A DNA stretch of 64,000 nt from Oscillospiraceae bacterium. Lineage in GTDB: Bacteria; Bacillota; Clostridia; Oscillospirales; JAAYXM01. Of the stretch, positions 57,308-64,000 are shown one piece after another. Position numbers and translations under genes: made by a program. How positions within the stretch are numbered: the stretch's first letter is position 1; each line of letters opens with the position of its first letter. The notes under the pieces were generated by a model, which saw only the letters and a list, made by a program, of their open reading frames with translations, ran no database searches and was not told where the DNA came from. The DNA is taken from the NCBI GenBank assembly GCA_017421025.1, contig JAFQME010000016.1, positions 1 to 64,000 of the forward strand, written 5' to 3'.

Positions 57308-58596
57308 ACCATTCTCCCAATCAATGTTTCTCGCTCACTGACTCCGATAATTGCCACATCCAAGATTTGATTCTTCAAATCCGAGTCGTGCGTCAGTTCC
57401 ACCAAGAGATATTCTTTGTTGTGTCCCTGCCAAACACCGTCGGATTCCTCTTCAAACAACACCGAAACGGTTTTTCCAACAAATGAATTCAAATAGCGCT
57501 TTCTTGCAGCACTTGCCGCAGCACCGGCACGTTTGGTACGTGCTTCTTTTTCATACTTTGGCACTTGATTGAGCATCTTAGCTGCACGTGTCCCCTCCCG
57601 CTTGGAATACGGGAAAATGTGCATGGCAGAGAATCCAATCCGTTCAATGCTGCTTAATGTCTCAGCAAATTCCTCCTCGGTTTCCCCCGGAAAGCCGCAA
57701 ATCAAATCGGTGGTAACGGCGCAGTTTTCCCAAGTGTCCCGAAGCAAACGCACTGAAGTTTCGTACCGTTCCATATCGTATTTTCGATTCATGCGCTTGA
57801 GTGTCGCATCACATCCGCTTTGCAGGGACAGGTGAAATTGCGGACACAGATTATCATATGACCCCAGAGTCTTACAAAATTCCTCGGTGATGGTACGCGG
57901 TTCGAGCGATCCGAGACGAATCCGAACCTCCGGCACGGCCAAGCACAATGCTTCCAAGAGGGAAATCAAAGTTTCTCCCTCAAGGTCTTTCCCATAAGAC
58001 GAAATTTCGATCCCGGTCACCACGATTTCACGGTATCCCGCCGCTGCAAGTTCTTTCGCTTGTGCGACTGCGATTTCTTTTTTAACCGAACGGATCCTGC
58101 CACGTGCATACGGAATGATACAATAGGTGCAGAAATTCTCACACCCATCCTCAATTTTCAGCATCGCTCGGGTATGCCCGGTATCCAACCCCACCGGAAG
58201 GGTCTCAAACCCAAAGCGGTGAAGAGCGTCGTCCATTTGAAGCTTCGGAGCACGGTCTCTGACGGTCTCCTCCACCAAACGAAGCACCTCAGCACGGTTT
58301 CCGGTCCCCATAATCACATCACAGCAGCCGAGTTGCTCTGCAGCGTTTGGATTGGCCTGAGGAAAGCATCCGCAAGCGGCAATCACAGCATCCGGATATT
58401 CCCGGCGAAGTTTTCTCAGCAACTGGCGGGACTTTTTATCGCTCACCGCAGTGACGGTGCAAGTGTTGACAACACAGGCGTCCGGATCACAAGTCCCCTC
58501 CACCACGGTATGCCCCGCTTCACGGAACACACGCATCAACGACTGAGTCTCAACTTGATTCACTTTACAGCCAAGGGTATAAAAAGCGACCTTCAT
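57304..58596 (-). CDS. mtaB: tRNA t6A37 methylthiotransferase MtaB
   Basis: This 430-residue radical SAM enzyme adds a methylthio group to t6A37 of tRNA. An N-terminal UPF0004 domain has three Cys for the second cluster (LGCKVNQVE, VNTCTV, AACGCFPQ). The radical SAM motif is CENFCTYCIIPYARG, and a C-terminal TRAM domain (about 370-430) follows. Its head position and its own promoter make it the first gene of the murB-rapZ-yvcK-whiA-dnaE run. Confidence 0.95.
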   Translation of the reverse strand: MKVAFYTLGCKVNQVETQSLMRVFREAGHTVVEGTCDPDACVVNTCTVTAVSDKKSRQLLRKLRREYPDAVIAACGCFPQANPNAAEQLGCCDVIMGTGNRAEVLRLVEETVRDRAPKLQMDDALHRFGFETLPVGLDTGHTRAMLKIEDGCENFCTYCIIPYARGRIRSVKKEIAVAQAKELAAAGYREIVVTGIEISSYGKDLEGETLISLLEALCLAVPEVRIRLGSLEPRTITEEFCKTLGSYDNLCPQFHLSLQSGCDATLKRMNRKYDMERYETSVRLLRDTWENCAVTTDLICGFPGETEEEFAETLSSIERIGFSAMHIFPYSKREGTRAAKMLNQVPKYEKEARTKRAGAAASAARKRYLNSFVGKTVSVLFEEESDGVWQGHNKEYLLVELTHDSDLKNQILDVAIIGVSERETLIGRMV

Positions 58597-58639
58597 CCGG
58601 ATTCTCCTTGCAGTTCTAATTTCATACTACTCCAAATAT

Positions 58640-58669
58640 ATTATAACGTGTTATCCCCTGCAAACGCAA
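58640..58669 (-). promoter_or_regulatory. promoter of the mtaB-murB-dnaE run
   Basis: On the minus strand TTGCGT (58664-58669), 18 bases, TATAAT (58640-58645), about 43 bases before the mtaB ATG. Confidence 0.65.
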
Positions 58670-58744
58670 GTAATTTATTCAATTCGGCCATCCGCATGCC
58701 GAAATCTGCGGAATCCGCTCTTTGTGCGATGATTGGGAGGCATT

Positions 58745-59872
58745 ATGAAACGATTCTTCTGTCTTGTTTTGACCGTAACTTTACTCATATCAACCGTTTT
58801 TGCCGCACCTGCACCACCCGAAATTCCTGCTCCTTGTGCAGTTTTAATGGAGCGTGACACAGGAAAAGTTCTTTTTGAGAAAAACCCACACGAAAAGCTG
58901 CAACCAGCAAGTGTGACCAAAGTAATGACCCTACTTTTGGTTATGGAAGCACTCGATGACGGAAAAATCACATTGGACGACACCGTCACCGTCAGTCCGT
59001 TTGCGGCGAGCATGGGCGGCTCACAAGTATATTTGGAGCCGGGCGAAACCATGAGTGTGGACGATATGCTCAAAGCGACTGTGATTGCGTCCGGCAACGA
59101 TTCCGCTGTGGCACTTGCCGAGCACGTTGCCGGCAGTATGGAGGGGTTTGTCTCCCTGATGAATGAGCGTGCAAAAGAACTCGGCATGGAGGACACCACA
59201 TTCATCAACTGCACCGGGCTCCCCGACCCTGACCACGTCACATCCGCCTATGATATTGCGCTGATGTCACGTGCTCTGCTGGCACACGACACAATTAAAA
59301 ACTATTCAACGGTTTGGATGGATACCCTTCGCGACGGTGCCTTTGGGCTTTCCAACACCAACAAACTCCTGCGTTCCTACAATGGGATCACCGGGCTGAA
59401 AACCGGCTCCACCGATGCAGCTAAATACTGTATGTCCGCAACCGCAGAGCGTGACGGGATGGAACTCATCGCAGCAGTCATGGCTTCCCCAACCTCGGCA
59501 GAACGATTCTCTGCAGCGTCAAAGCTTTTGGACTACGGATTTGCAAATTTCGCATTATATGATTCCACGAAAAATCAATCTCTTTCTCCGGTCCCTGTGA
59601 AGTTGGGGGCTGCGCAAAGCGTTCCTGCCGTTTTTTCCGGCGAGCCCAAAGTCTTGGTGGAAAAAAGCCGACTTTCCGATGTGACCCACTCCATCACCCT
59701 TGTCGAAGAAGTACACGCACCGGTAGAGGCCGGGCAAACGCTGGGCGAACTCTCAGTTACAGCTGGCGGCGAGGTTTTGGCAACCGTTCCAATCTTAGCA
59801 CAATGCAGTGTTGAACGGGTCGGAATCAAAACAGTCTTTTGGAGAATGTTGAAATCTTATCTCATATATTGA
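58745..59872 (+). CDS. dacF: D-alanyl-D-alanine carboxypeptidase (DacF/PBP5-type, S11)
   Basis: This exported protein of 375 residues has a signal peptide (1-20, ends VFAA). Its active site has all three motifs: SVTK (Ser about 53), SGN (about 116), and KTG (about 220). It trims the terminal D-Ala of peptidoglycan side chains. In Bacillus, dacF is made in the forespore; here the sequence does not show a clear sporulation promoter. The C-terminal domain (about 270-360) is the PBP5-associated type, and a membrane-anchoring tail ends at WRMLKSYLIY. The ribosome site GGGAGGC sits close (4 bases) to the ATG. Confidence 0.93.
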   Translation: MKRFFCLVLTVTLLISTVFAAPAPPEIPAPCAVLMERDTGKVLFEKNPHEKLQPASVTKVMTLLLVMEALDDGKITLDDTVTVSPFAASMGGSQVYLEPGETMSVDDMLKATVIASGNDSAVALAEHVAGSMEGFVSLMNERAKELGMEDTTFINCTGLPDPDHVTSAYDIALMSRALLAHDTIKNYSTVWMDTLRDGAFGLSNTNKLLRSYNGITGLKTGSTDAAKYCMSATAERDGMELIAAVMASPTSAERFSAASKLLDYGFANFALYDSTKNQSLSPVPVKLGAAQSVPAVFSGEPKVLVEKSRLSDVTHSITLVEEVHAPVEAGQTLGELSVTAGGEVLATVPILAQCSVERVGIKTVFWRMLKSYLIY

Positions 59873-59874
59873 CA

Positions 59875-59903
59875 AAAAACGGGTCGGTAGACCCGTTTTT
59901 TTC
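59875..59903 (+). terminator. terminator after dacF
   Basis: AAAACGGGTC pairs with GACCCGTTTT around a 5-base loop, followed by a T-run. Confidence 0.9.
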
Positions 59904-59963
59904 TTCTCCACCGACAGTAGAATCGACTCTACAAACATTGTCGGAAACTTTCGGTAGGAATCA

Positions 59964-59993
59964 TTAGACTTTTGTGTTATGATCTGTTATAAT
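59964..59993 (+). promoter_or_regulatory. promoter of the hemolysin-III-like gene and pgi
   Basis: TTAGAC (59964-59969), 18 bases, TATAAT (59988-59993). The -10 is perfect, the -35 poor. Confidence 0.55.
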
Positions 59994-60017
59994 AAATTTA
60001 TACACAGGAGGCACAGT

Positions 60018-60671
60018 ATGTCAAATCTCAAAAAAGATCTCCCGTCTTACACCTTAGGAGAAGAACTCATGAGTTCTATTTCGCATGGTGTGGGTGCTCT
60101 CTTCGGGGCACTGACGTTGGTATTATGTGTTGCAAAATCCGTTTCTCACGGTTCTGTAATGGGAATCGTTGCGAGCGCAATTTTCGGTGCAAGCATGATC
60201 GTCTTGTACTCCATGTCCACCTTGTACCATGCGTTAGGTCGAAATCGTGCAAAAGCAGTTTTTCGTGTATTGGATCATTGCAGCATTTATTTCCTGATTG
60301 CAGGGACCTATACCCCCTATACCTTAGTGGCACTGAAAGGTGCTTTGGGCTGGACTCTGTTTGGCATTGTATGGGGTGCTGCAATTTTGGGAATCACACT
60401 CAACGCTGTCAGTGTGGAGCGGTTTAAAGTCTTTTCCATGATCTGCTATCTCTGCATGGGTTGGGTCATTATTTTTGCGATTCGTCCACTGCTTTCTGCA
60501 ATCCCGTGGAATTCGTTCCTGTTGCTGCTGTGGGGTGGGATCGCATATACCGTCGGCGCAGTTGTGTTCGGCTTCGGCAAAAAGATGCGCTACATCCATT
60601 CGGTTTGGCACTTTTTTGTGCTTGCAGGAAGTATTCTGCATTTCTTATCGATTTATCTTTACATTCTATAA
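60018..60671 (+). CDS. hemolysin III/PAQR-family membrane protein
   Basis: This 217-residue protein has seven membrane helices and the PAQR metal-site signature spread over them: SxxxH in STLYHAL, Asp in LDHCSIYFLIAGTYTP, and HxxxH in HSVWHFFVLAGSILHF. The Bacillus relative is called YqfA or hemolysin III, though hemolysis is doubtful; PAQR proteins may be zinc-dependent lipid hydrolases. AGGAGG lies before the ATG. It precedes pgi by 15 bases, so both should be on one transcript. Confidence 0.9.
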   Translation: MSNLKKDLPSYTLGEELMSSISHGVGALFGALTLVLCVAKSVSHGSVMGIVASAIFGASMIVLYSMSTLYHALGRNRAKAVFRVLDHCSIYFLIAGTYTPYTLVALKGALGWTLFGIVWGAAILGITLNAVSVERFKVFSMICYLCMGWVIIFAIRPLLSAIPWNSFLLLLWGGIAYTVGAVVFGFGKKMRYIHSVWHFFVLAGSILHFLSIYLYIL

Positions 60672-60686
60672 GGAGGAATAAAAAAT

Positions 60687-62018
60687 ATGGCAATTAAAGT
60701 TTCTACCAAATACGCAGTCGAGGAAGCACGTCTTTCCTCAATCACAAGCGAGCTTTCCGCTGCGCATGACACTTTGGTAAACGGCACAGGTGCCGGTAAC
60801 GATTATGTGGGTTGGGTCAACCTTCCCCGTGATTACGACAAAGAAGAGTTTTCTCGAATCAAAGCAGCTGCAGAGCGCATCAAGCGTCAATCTGAAGTGC
60901 TTTTGGTCATCGGCATCGGCGGTTCTTACCTCGGTGCACGTGCAGCAATCGAGCTGCTCAAAAGCCCGTATTACAATCAGTTAACCAAAGACACCCCGGA
61001 GATTTACTTTGTGGGCAACAACATCAGCGGCGACTATGTTTCCGAGATCGTTCAGCTCATTGGTGGCCGTGATTTCTCGGTCAACGTGATTTCAAAATCC
61101 GGCACTACCACCGAGCCTGCGATTGCGTTCCGTATTTTTAAAACCATGTTGGAAGACAAATACGGAAAGGGCGGCGCAAGAGACCGCATCTACGCAACTA
61201 CCGACGCAGCACGTGGCGCACTCAAGAGCCTTGCAGATACCGAAGGATATGAAACCTTCGTGATTCCGGATAATGTTGGCGGTCGTTACTCGGTTCTCAC
61301 CGCAGTCGGACTGCTTCCTATTGCAGTCGCCGGTGTGGACATCGACGAAATGATGGCATCCGCAGAAGCTACCATGCAAGCTCTGATTTCGGACAAGTCC
61401 ATGAACAATCCGGCATGGCGTTATGTTGGTGCTCGCAACCTGCTCTATCGTGACGGCAAAAAGACCGAGATTTTAGGTTGCTTCGAGCCGAGATTCCGCT
61501 TCATGGCAGAGTGGTGGAAGCAGTTGTTCGGCGAAAGTGAAGGCAAAGACGGTAAGGGTCTCTTCCCCGCTTCCGTTGATCTCACCGCTGACCTCCATTC
61601 CATGGGTCAGTACATCCAGGAGGGTGAACGCACCCTGTTTGAAACCATGGTCACCATTGCAAAGCCGAATTACGAAGTTACCATTGATGCAACCGAGGAC
61701 AATTTGGACGGACTCAACTTCCTGGCAGGGGTCACCATGTCGCACGTCAACCGTCAGGCATTTTTGGGTACTGTTCTCGCTCATGTGGACGGCGGCGTCC
61801 CGAATATTGAAATCGTGATGGAAAACTCCGATGCCGCATCGTTTGGTGCACTGGTTTATTTCTTCGAATTTGCTTGCGGTCTCTCGGGTTATGTTTTGGG
61901 CGTCAACCCGTTTAATCAGCCGGGTGTTGAAGCTTATAAAAAGAACATGTTCGCACTTCTCGGCAAGCCCGGATATGAGGATTCCACAGCAGCACTCCGC
62001 AGCCGTTTGGACGATTAA
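60687..62018 (+). CDS. pgi: glucose-6-phosphate isomerase
   Basis: This 443-residue glycolytic enzyme converts glucose-6-phosphate to fructose-6-phosphate. It has the SIS-domain sugar-binding motifs [19 protein letters not shown] and [15 protein letters not shown], and the C-terminal [18 protein letters not shown]. It is of the short Firmicute type. AAGGAGG precedes the ATG by 10 bases. Confidence 0.97.
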
Positions 62019-62047
62019 GAATTTTTTGTGACTTTTCGAAAAATAGA

Positions 62048-62076
62048 TTGAGTTTTCCCCGAATGTGTGCTATGAT
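62048..62076 (+). promoter_or_regulatory. promoter of the small P-loop gene
   Basis: TTGAGT (62048-62053), 17 bases, TATGAT (62071-62076). There is no terminator between pgi and this gene, so read-through is also possible. Confidence 0.65.
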
Positions 62077-62132
62077 AAAGATAACAAACACGGGCAACAC
62101 ACTCGTTGCTCACTGAAAGGGAGGATCATTTC

Positions 62133-62543
62133 ATGGTCAAAGTAATCATGGGTCTTCAGGGACACGGTAAAACAAAACAAATCATTGAGCTTGCAAATGC
62201 TGCTGTCAAGGAAGATGCAAACACTGTCGTCTGCATCGAGCGCGGCAATAAGCTCACTTACGATATCAGCCATCGCGTTCGTTTGGTTGACGTTTCTTCT
62301 TTCCCCATCACCAGTTATGAGCGTTTGAAGGCGTTTATCTGCGGGCTCTATTCCGGCAACTTTGATATCTCCGATATCTTCATCGACAGTCTCTACAAAG
62401 TCGCAAAGAGCGACTCTGTGGAAGAAACCGAAAACTTCCTCGCATGGTTGGATGAGTTCGGTGCACAGAACAACATCAACTTCATCACCACCATCAGCGC
62501 TGATGAAACAACCGCAACCGACGGCGTGAAGAAATTCTTCTAA
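62133..62543 (+). CDS. small P-loop protein of unknown function
   Basis: This 136-residue protein starts with a P-loop (GLQGHGKTK, residues 7-15) like ATPase proteins, then VVCIERGNKLTYDISH and a strand with IFIDSLYK that resembles Walker B (hydrophobic stretch then Asp). Small proteins like this in Clostridia are sometimes labelled PilT-like (twitching motility), but this one lacks the length and domains of a pilus ATPase. Its role is unknown. GGGAGGA precedes the ATG. Its 3' end is part of a duplicated segment that recurs at 63746-63800. Confidence 0.75.
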   Translation: MVKVIMGLQGHGKTKQIIELANAAVKEDANTVVCIERGNKLTYDISHRVRLVDVSSFPITSYERLKAFICGLYSGNFDISDIFIDSLYKVAKSDSVEETENFLAWLDEFGAQNNINFITTISADETTATDGVKKFF

Positions 62544-62592
62544 AAACGCACAAAGAGCAGTGGATCAAATCCACTGCTCTTTTTTTATTATA
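62535..62592. repeat. duplicated terminator segment, copy A
   Basis: Roughly 55 bases at 62535-62592 recur at 63746-63800 with about 90% identity, from TTCTAAAAA through the hairpin to TTATTAT/TTGTTAT. Copy A includes the stop codon of the small P-loop gene. Confidence 0.75.
62551..62587. terminator. terminator of the P-loop gene, also used by the XRE gene
   Basis: AAGAGCAGTGGAT pairs with ATCCACTGCTCTT around CAA, followed by a T-run. It lies between convergent genes. Confidence 0.88.
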
Positions 62593-62914
62593 ATTGAATG
62601 ATTTCCGAAATAATCTTATAAATGATTTCCTGTTTCTCCGAAGAAAGTGGCAAAACCTTATTGTAGAGTTTGACCGCATAACTCTCTTCCTCACTCGTTC
62701 CTTCCATATGAGAAAACAACGCACCAACGGTCATTTCCAACCCTTTGGAGATTTTATAAATGCTCTCCAGGGTTGGACTTTTTTCACCACGCTCAAGCTG
62801 TCCGATATAAGTGGGATGCAATCCACTCATTTCCGCAAGCCGTTCTTGGCTGATATTCTTTGAATTTCTGATACTACGAATCCGTTTTCCGAATAATACT
62901 GTGATTTGATCCAT
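62588..62914 (-). CDS. XRE-family transcriptional regulator
   Basis: This 108-residue protein has a helix-turn-helix at about 8-62 (IRSIRNSKNISQERLAEMSG, LHPTYIGQLERGEKSPTLES) and a short helical tail (about 70-105). The HTH is of the SinR/XRE type and forms dimers. The start is ATG at 62914, with GGAGG 5 bases ahead. It diverges from the exported-protein gene at 63064, and its promoter carries one of two matching palindromes. It probably represses itself and its neighbour. Confidence 0.88.
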   Translation of the reverse strand: MDQITVLFGKRIRSIRNSKNISQERLAEMSGLHPTYIGQLERGEKSPTLESIYKISKGLEMTVGALFSHMEGTSEEESYAVKLYNKVLPLSSEKQEIIYKIISEIIQL

Positions 62915-62943
62915 CATTTCCTCCAAATTTCCTCTTTGAAAAC

Positions 62944-62955
62944 ATACTATAGAAT
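62944..62955. promoter_or_regulatory. XRE operator copy 1, over the XRE promoter -10
   Basis: ATACTATAGAAT differs by one base from the perfect palindrome at 63004-63015. It overlaps the -10 (TAGTAT, 62944-62949) of the XRE promoter, whose -35 is TTGTTA at 62967-62972 (17-base spacer, minus strand). Confidence 0.6.
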
Positions 62956-62979
62956 GTAAATATTTTTAACAACAGACTA

Positions 62980-63008
62980 TTGACTTTATGTTTTCGATAA
63001 TCTATACT
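62980..63008 (+). promoter_or_regulatory. promoter of the exported copper-amine-oxidase-domain protein
   Basis: TTGACT (62980-62985), 17 bases, TATACT (63003-63008). Confidence 0.75.
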
Positions 63009-63015
63009 ATAGTAT
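63004..63015. promoter_or_regulatory. XRE operator copy 2, over the -10 of the exported-protein gene
   Basis: ATACTATAGTAT, a perfect 12-base palindrome overlapping the -10. The centres of copies 1 and 2 are 60 bases apart, about six helical turns. Confidence 0.6.
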
Positions 63016-63063
63016 GTAGTTTTCTCAACAAGAAAACAAAAGTATTTATTTGGAGGTTTTTCT

Positions 63064-63744
63064 ATGAAAAACAGTTTGTTCAAAGTGGGTTTGGGTGTCT
63101 TGATCGGCATGATGCTCAGCAGCGGAATTGTTTATGCTGCAAGCACAAGAAAGACGATTGATGTCACCTACAACAGCATCAAAGTCTACAAAGACAAGGT
63201 ATTGTGCGAATTGAAAGATGCCAATGGTACCGTCATTGAGCCGTTCATCTACAATGGTACCACATATATGCCGGTGCGTGGGACCGCATCTCTTGCGGAT
63301 ATGGACGTCACCTGGGACGGTGCGACCCAAAGCGTGTATCTTTGGGACGAGATGGCAGCAGACGGTACCTATCTCTTAGACGTTTGCCCGCCGTATTCTC
63401 TTGATTGTTTCGACACTTATAACACCGGGAAAACCTTTGAAATGGCAGGCAAAAAGTACAGCAACGGAATTGTAGGTAGAAATTGGTACTATGGTACTAA
63501 TAAGGTTGCCCTTTTCAATCTCGACAGCCGATATGCCGCAATCGAATGTACAATCGGGCATACCGATAATGATCACGAAGAAAAAACCGTATTGTTCATC
63601 GTTGACGGCAAAGTGGTAAAAGAAGTGGTATTGGAACCCGAGTGTTTGCCGAAAAAAGTTTCCATTCCGGTAAAATATGGGTTGCAGCTTAAAATCCAGC
63701 TGACCGGTCGTGATGTTGGTTTGGGCAACATCACAGTCAAATAG
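63064..63744 (+). CDS. exported protein with copper-amine-oxidase-N-like and NPCBM-like domains
   Basis: This 226-residue secreted protein has a signal peptide (1-25, ending VYAA). Residues about 30-95 match the copper amine oxidase N-terminal domain, a small wall-associated fold with the pattern YNGTTYMPVRGTASL and VTWDGATQSVYL. Residues about 110-226 look like an NPCBM carbohydrate-binding domain (NGIVGRNWYYGTNKVALFNL...DNDHEEKTVLFIVDGK). It contains no catalytic motif. The XRE regulator upstream probably controls it. The stop is TAG. Confidence 0.82.
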   Translation: MKNSLFKVGLGVLIGMMLSSGIVYAASTRKTIDVTYNSIKVYKDKVLCELKDANGTVIEPFIYNGTTYMPVRGTASLADMDVTWDGATQSVYLWDEMAADGTYLLDVCPPYSLDCFDTYNTGKTFEMAGKKYSNGIVGRNWYYGTNKVALFNLDSRYAAIECTIGHTDNDHEEKTVLFIVDGKVVKEVVLEPECLPKKVSIPVKYGLQLKIQLTGRDVGLGNITVK

Positions 63745-63745
63745 G

Positions 63746-63800
63746 TTTTCTAAAAAGTGCGCAAAGAGCAGTGGACCAAATCCACTGCTCTTTTTTGTTA
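63746..63800. repeat. duplicated terminator segment, copy B
   Basis: This is the second copy of the segment at 62535-62592. It keeps the TTCTAAAA that is the stop-codon region of the P-loop gene in copy A, although here it lies outside any reading frame. Confidence 0.75.
63762..63797 (+). terminator. terminator after the exported-protein gene
   Basis: AAGAGCAGTGGA pairs with TCCACTGCTCTT around CCAAA, followed by a T-run; it also faces the DUF3592 gene on the other strand. Confidence 0.85.
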
Positions 63801-63819
63801 TGATCAATTTCAATCGTTC

Positions 63820-64000
63820 TCAAACAATAAAAAAACAAAGGGCAAGAATGATAACTCCTAACACCACGCCTAAAACACCTTTCAATATTTCTTGTTTTAA
63901 GCTTTGTACGGATATAACAGTCATGTTAGTCGGGTCATAACATACGTCAATTGAATCATTCACCCGAAACTTGCTCGGTTTCTCACCATCTACTTTTTCC
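63820..64000 (-). CDS. DUF3592-like membrane protein, C-terminal part only
   Basis: This is a minus-strand gene running off the right edge; 59 residues and the stop codon are inside. The visible part has FRVNDSIDVCYDPTNMTVIS, matching the DUF3592 motif in which a YDP is followed by a few residues, then a C-terminal membrane helix (GVLGVVLGVIILALCFFIV) at the end. Start and N-terminus lie beyond the window. Function unknown. Confidence 0.65.
   Translation of the reverse strand, partial: EKVDGEKPSKFRVNDSIDVCYDPTNMTVISVQSLKQEILKGVLGVVLGVIILALCFFIV

Follow-up and report, generated by a model that had tools for sequence, protein, structure and literature searches.

Three putative operators at 30-bp steps between an XRE-family regulator gene and its divergent partner, mostly in Clostridia

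The window, a stretch of 64,000 nucleotides from an Oscillospiraceae bacterium, contains a small XRE-family regulator gene preceded by three putative operator sites with fixed spacing. In the genomes searched, this array showed a one-to-one tie to the XRE family. Sequence comparison supports the assignment of the sites to the XRE gene, and the same layout occurs before relatives of this gene in other bacteria, mostly Clostridia. The location of the sites over both predicted promoters of a divergent gene pair fits control by the XRE protein of its own gene and of its partner, which encodes an exported protein.

Layout of the divergent promoter region

The XRE gene (62588..62914, minus strand) encodes 108 amino acids from an ATG at 62914 (alternative ATG at 62917), with an HTH_3 domain and two C-terminal helices. 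An intergenic region of 149 bp (62915-63063, 74% A+T) separates it from the partner gene (63064..63744, plus strand), whose product of 226 amino acids has a hydrophobic N-terminal segment, a Cu_amine_oxidN1 domain and a CBM51/NPCBM-like C-terminal beta sandwich. The partner promoter is predicted on the plus strand with -35 box TTGACT (62980..62985), -10 box TATACT (63003..63008) and a 17-bp spacer. On the minus strand, the predicted XRE promoter consists of TTGTTA (62967..62972) and TAGTAT (62944..62949), also with a 17-bp spacer; in an alternative frame, its -10 box would be TATAGT two bases upstream with a 15-bp spacer. Since TTGTTA-17-TAGTAT was not returned by the promoter scan that gave the partner promoter, the XRE promoter is presumably weak.

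The original prediction had drawn attention to two matching palindromes, one on each of these promoters. Both words, ATACTATAGAAT at 62944-62955 and ATACTATAGTAT at 63004-63015, are present, their centres (62949.5 and 63009.5) are exactly 60 bp apart, and both cover the predicted -10 boxes of the divergent promoters. They form the cores of the putative operators R (62941..62957, over the XRE -10 box) and L (63001..63017, over the partner -10 box). A third site, M (62967..62987), absent from that earlier account, reads AAGTCAATAGTCTGTTG on the minus strand, is less symmetric, overlaps both -35 boxes and lies exactly midway. The centres of L, M and R at 63009.5, 62979.5 and 62949.5 thus follow each other in steps of exactly 30 bp. 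The idea of a single 60-bp loop between two dimers as the basic unit was dropped upon finding the middle site: there are three putative operators, and the unit is 30 bp.

Such a pair of palindromes is rare. In the window, matches to the palindrome with one mismatch allowed numbered 4 (both strands counted) versus 0.18 expected from 100 shuffles. A search for near-palindromes (at least 5 of 6 pairs) with at least 11 of 12 identical positions and at most 200 bp apart returned this pair as the only one in 64 kb, whereas 60 dinucleotide shuffles of the window gave a mean of 0.03 pairs with a maximum of 1, and shuffling the intergenic region 3000 times produced such a pair in only 3 cases. The own assembly (1.53 Mb, 77% complete) carries exact matches to ATACTATAGWAT at these two places only. 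With up to two mismatches, 119 matches were obtained, fewer than for a reversed control pattern (281), which argues against a genome-wide family of palindromes, and a wider regulon of the same palindrome was sought in the own genome and not found. One site with a single mismatch (C33:5078) has another XRE gene at a distance of about 480 bp, but no promoter context was visible around it.

Intrinsic terminator hairpins flank the gene pair. One (62552..62582) separates the end of the XRE gene from an AAA-like gene, and a near-identical one follows the exported gene on the plus strand (63763..63793). The two differ at one base in 25, and no further occurrence with up to three mismatches was found in the own assembly. 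The 1.2-kb pair looks as if it had been gained, or could be lost, by recombination between the flanking hairpins.

Conservation of the array before related XRE genes

Relatives of the XRE protein were collected from 84,980 species, each represented by a single genome, by peptide patterns, which retrieve close relatives only. A relative was encoded by 253 stretches, many of them from metagenome assemblies, of which the 80 best loci, with 41-63% identity, were retained. Together with the window these made 81 loci; L075, with only 53 bp upstream, was dropped, so that the scored set comprised the window and 79 of the best 80 of the 253 relatives (L002 and L004 are outside this set). The upstream regions display three sites, L (ATATTTATAGTATA), M (TCAATAGTCTGTTGA) and R (AATATTTATAGTCTATA). 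Scored with weight matrices that left out each locus and its near relatives, the array exceeded a score of 10 before 71 of the 80 XRE genes, the window (39.9) included. One carrier of the array, Eisenbergiella tayi (L068), is a cultured species. Maximum scores were -5.8 in 480 shuffles and -1.6 in 21 other XRE promoters. These controls were taken from the 30 loci of an XRE-relative search, leaving out the window itself, L002 (its upstream region matches that of the member L111), the truncated L016 and six loci read on the wrong strand. The threshold of 10 was chosen after the scores had been seen. The bare shuffle maximum would admit 73 of 80 members together with one control (L007, -1.6), and therefore the number of 71 is reported. 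The nine members not exceeding 10 are L050, L051, L052, L054, L058, L070, L087, L109 and L111, with L058 and L070 just above the shuffle maximum. Their recognition helices resemble those of the remaining members; hence the helix alone does not predict the array.

When spacing was left free, L was placed at -30 in 64 and R at +30 in 61 of the 73 loci above the shuffle maximum. Exact 30/30 steps were found in 64 of the 71 arrays, which align free of gaps over 85 columns; the alignment and the array model were built from these 64, and the absence of gaps is partly a matter of selection. M is the most conserved site, a rank inflated by the anchoring of the set on M. Since the peptide patterns include the recognition helix and the alignment is anchored on M, the conservation of both partly reflects selection. 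The window is among the less typical members in L and R, which are palindromes with a 2-bp centre (leave-out scores of 7.2 and 5.6, compared with 27.1 for M). Outside the promoter hexamers, the information content is 1.26 bits in L, 1.41 in M and 0.91 in R versus 0.23-0.41 bits in spacers and flanks, so the conservation is not merely that of promoters, although the 17-bp promoter spacers explain part of the 30-bp step. A fourth word, TACTATAA, is present in 22 of the 71 arrays (among them L047, L048, L065, L071, L073, L101 and L118, not the window). It is found 59-61 bp away from where M starts, roughly one further 30-bp step past L. Such arrays, many of which face SLOG genes, may represent a version with four operators.

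The link to the regulator was also approached from the array side. A model of the array that uses sequence alone was applied to 295 genomes, almost all belonging to other families within the order, with 15 candidates per genome scored under strict filters. Matches with an E-value of 0.001 or better were obtained in 24 genomes, 12 of which had a strong match (E at most 6.5e-7), with one array per genome. The presence or absence of an XRE gene at all 24 was settled by profile search, one locus (L220) having been missed by a word search. A gene of this XRE family lies directly downstream of the array in 12 of 12 strong matches, and the profile search found none around the 12 weaker ones (E 4e-5 to 9e-4). 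At least 3 of the 12 strong matches repeat, or nearly repeat, training loci (the window; L213, which is like L123; L217, which is like L088), and a further one (L209) resembles L065. The own genome has one array according to the model and one exact L-M match. A genome of the same genus (G001, 83% complete) showed neither an array nor a close XRE relative (best E 4.2e-5). XRE homologues on a Subdoligranulum plasmid and in a faecal contig labelled as phage are likewise preceded by the array; it was not found before the gene of a Clostridioides phage homologue. A simpler pattern of L and M with two mismatches matched 262 of the 295 genomes, hits that were read as mostly ordinary sigma-A promoters in reverse orientation, and the full-array model took its place.

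The exported partner and divergent genes at other loci

Pfam assigns a Cu_amine_oxidN1 domain to the window partner. Its structure model has a pLDDT of 71, with the C-terminal part modelled best, and Foldseek relates this part to 2vmg (CBM51-like, E 1.6e-5). The carbohydrate-binding type suggested in the original prediction is supported by the CBM51 fold and by a Pfam NPCBM match in a paralog, while the window protein itself has no Pfam NPCBM match; it is probably an exported, carbohydrate-binding surface protein. For the additional idea that it serves as a signal, nothing supporting was found.

At the sister locus L044 (XRE identity 63-64%, support 98/91), the regulator gene faces another exported Cu_amine_oxidN1 protein. 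Elsewhere the partners are diverse. At 59 of 64 loci, mechanical calling placed the start of a divergent ORF, at least 60 codons long or cut off by the contig end, no more than 400 bp from L; four of the others had no divergent ORF and one had a stub at the contig end. Pfam was run on 20 partners, seven of which had no match, and the divergent ORFs were also clustered. Membrane acyltransferases of the MBOAT type were found at L045 (Pfam), L057 and L061 (clustering), TadZ at L059 (Pfam) and L082 (clustering), FHA-FtsK/SpoIIIE proteins at L055 and L056, dockerin or Ig-like exported proteins at L046, L094 and L102, and a glycosyltransferase at L058, where the array score is below 10. Clustering grouped 19 partners as SLOG-like, of which three were scanned with Pfam and two were above the cut-off. 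The SLOG/YpsA-like partners, e.g. at L071, L073 and L105, have about 160 amino acids. ABC permeases occur at four loci at a distance of 380-400 bp, Crp-like proteins at L112 and L106, and several further partners were left unassigned.

Pairing with an XRE gene is not a rule for the exported family. A rough inspection by eye of 14 loci from other genomes recognised no divergent small regulator at 13 and found one locus unreadable (L134); at L126, the wrong ORF was probably taken. The own genome encodes four other exported paralogs (L151-L154; C11:39375, C14:83915, C18:61362 and C19:121241), for which Cu_amine_oxidN1 was confirmed by Pfam at C11 and C18 only. Each is divergent to a different small ORF, two of the HTH_3 (XRE) type, one RHH_1 and one unclassified, and no three-site array was found in these four stretches. 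This is a single exported surface family with several private regulators. Long palindromes are located just before two of the paralogs, CCACAAATACATCATATGATGTATTTGTGG at L152 and a near-perfect one around CATATG at L151. The XRE and exported pair at L155 (G001, C21) and the RHH and exported pair at L153 (own C18) share the same arrangement beside a gene that we take to be mnmE, as if the regulator had been exchanged.

The regulator, its proposed action and its possible significance

The only Pfam domain of the XRE protein is the HTH domain (HTH_3, 56.4 bits versus a cut-off of 23). Similarity to the RstR family repressor model (NCBIfam NF041951) reaches 63.4 bits and remains under the curated cut-off of 80. 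By sequence, the nearest solved chain is C.BclI (E 4e-13), while C.AhdI ranks third and C.Esp1396I fifth, and these restriction-modification controllers are the closest solved relatives by fold as well. Over 63-69 columns, the HTH part of the structure model (pLDDT 90.6) superposes in Foldseek with deviations of 0.6-1.3 A on C.BclI, 0.8 A on C.AhdI and about 1 A on wild-type C.Esp1396I. This agreement with the C-protein fold concerns the HTH part only, and such HTH folds are common to other XRE proteins in the match list. Unlike these three proteins, the window XRE has 108 amino acids with an extra C-terminal helical part and no recognised restriction or methyltransferase neighbours. No restriction-modification genes were recognised in reading the ORFs at window positions 58000-64000 and contig positions 63800-72000, nor among the 20 partners scanned with Pfam; the window copy thus does not appear as part of such a system.

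The XRE protein keeps the Thr-Tyr pair of the C.Esp1396I recognition helix and has a Lys aligned to Arg46 of C.Esp1396I. According to the available part of PMC4041747, binding by C.Esp1396I is no longer measurable in the T36A variant and is 11-fold weaker in Y37A. The C.Esp1396I site is given as GAC-TATA-GTC in the accessible portions of PMC4041747 and PMC3758141. Its core AC-TATA-GT is contained in operator L and one half of it in operator R; in L, the outer G/C is replaced by A/T. Most relatives have TTTATAGT instead of ACTATAGT and keep the TATAGT half only, so the complete C-protein core is found in few of them. As far as the available text of PMC3758141 goes, the C.Esp1396I system likewise has three operators, with a promoter hexamer within an operator as in the window. 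Three operators at equal 30-bp steps in one divergent promoter are nevertheless unlike C-protein sites, which in earlier studies were about 4 bp apart and partly overlapping, as summarized in the available part of PMC4321490. The same source portion describes dimer sites set farther apart, by 18 and 25 bp, for the C.Csp231I/EcoO109I class, which in this respect resembles the array, and reports for C.Csp231I that the length of the spacer matters and its sequence does not. In contrast to the window XRE, C.Csp231I recognises CTAAG-N5-CTTAG, and it and the EcoO109I C protein control restriction-modification genes.

From sites, promoters and homology we infer XRE binding, the order of filling and repression at the three operators. 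An autoregulated, C-protein-like repressor that shuts the strong partner promoter and limits its own weak one is the reading we consider likely. XRE dimers would bind L, M and R at 30-bp distance, with M overlapping the strong partner -35 box and reaching the weak XRE -35 box, L over the partner -10 box and R over the XRE -10 box. In the resting state, M and L would be filled and the exported partner off. A rising XRE level would fill R and cap its own synthesis, and loss or inactivation of XRE would turn the partner on. Of 63 arrays, 55 have a partner promoter that comes nearer to the consensus than the XRE promoter does; in 3 the two are equal, and in 5 the partner promoter is the worse one.

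Plain negative autoregulation, with the array setting the XRE level and the divergent gene passively affected or unregulated, would agree with the finding that the partner varies between loci while XRE gene and array are constant. It seems improbable to us, as L covers the -10 box of the partner promoter, conservation among the four hexamers is strongest in the two of the partner (1.43 and 1.35 bits versus 0.94 and 1.26 for XRE), and a divergent ORF is so regularly present (59/64 loci).

A SinR-like global regulator of many remote surface genes, for which the local array would serve autoregulation only, appears slightly less probable still. SinR of Bacillus subtilis is a small HTH_3 repressor linked to matrix genes. 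The XRE HTH is similar to SinR too (E 3e-5 to 5e-5), a weaker match than that to the C proteins, and some relatives' partners are surface or glycosyltransferase genes. We know of no such array for SinR. The own genome and the 12 strong-match genomes have one array apiece, which speaks against remote targets, as do the one exact L-M match and the lack of genome-wide enrichment of the palindrome words, with lower-quality single remote sites being possible.

The proposed repressor also has a counterpart in lambda CI, whose three operators OR1-OR2-OR3 lie between strong and weak divergent promoters; here, too, the middle one would lie near -42 of the regulator's own promoter. The operator sequence differs, the window has equal 30-bp spacing, and a reading of the neighbouring ORFs (58000-64000; contig 63800-72000) recognised no phage genes. 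We regard a phage or mobile-element immunity switch left in the chromosome as highly improbable, because, in spite of this lambda-like layout, the sub-threshold similarity to RstR phage repressors and the arrays with XRE homologues in the phage-labelled contig and on the plasmid, the neighbours look like housekeeping genes (presumably glucose-6-phosphate isomerase and purine genes), the Clostridioides phage homologue has no array, and the 20 Pfam-scanned partners, seven of them without a match, include no phage structural or lysis family.

Whether the repressor might act positively as well is a more tentative matter. If transcription starts 7 bases after the -10 boxes, as assumed for the prediction, the midpoint of M lies at a distance of 35.5 bp from the partner start and of 42.5 bp from the XRE start. 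Lambda CI stimulates its own promoter from OR2. C proteins stimulate theirs from OL, as stated in the available part of PMC4041747. A dimer at M, centred some 42.5 bp upstream of the predicted XRE start, may by analogy stimulate the weak XRE promoter, a proposal to which we give somewhat less than even chances; position and weak promoter are compatible with self-activation at low and repression at high dose, as in C proteins. At 30-bp steps (about 2.9 turns), dimers are unlikely to touch side by side. Contact between neighbouring dimers on bent DNA is possible by analogy to C.Csp231I, for whose 18-bp spacer DNA bending has been proposed (PMC4321490, available part).

Judged by titles and abstract openings, the open-access literature yielded no description of the three-operator array. 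Many records of the relatives are animal gut samples by their titles. A further-reaching idea, which we put forward as a rather doubtful possibility, is that a C-protein-like bistable switch with lambda logic has been separated from restriction-modification and is now a portable module across Clostridia. If so, a regulator and a near-invariant 85-bp promoter with three operators, four in some cases, would front surface proteins, membrane O-acyltransferases, TadZ, FHA-FtsK and SLOG proteins and could generate on and off states among identical cells. Since array and regulator go together, the array may mark the controlled gene in a genome. The array would provide an operator code, open to testing, for a family of regulators that is widespread in Clostridia, would tie this family to the C proteins and suggests how surface and other genes might be switched on and off.
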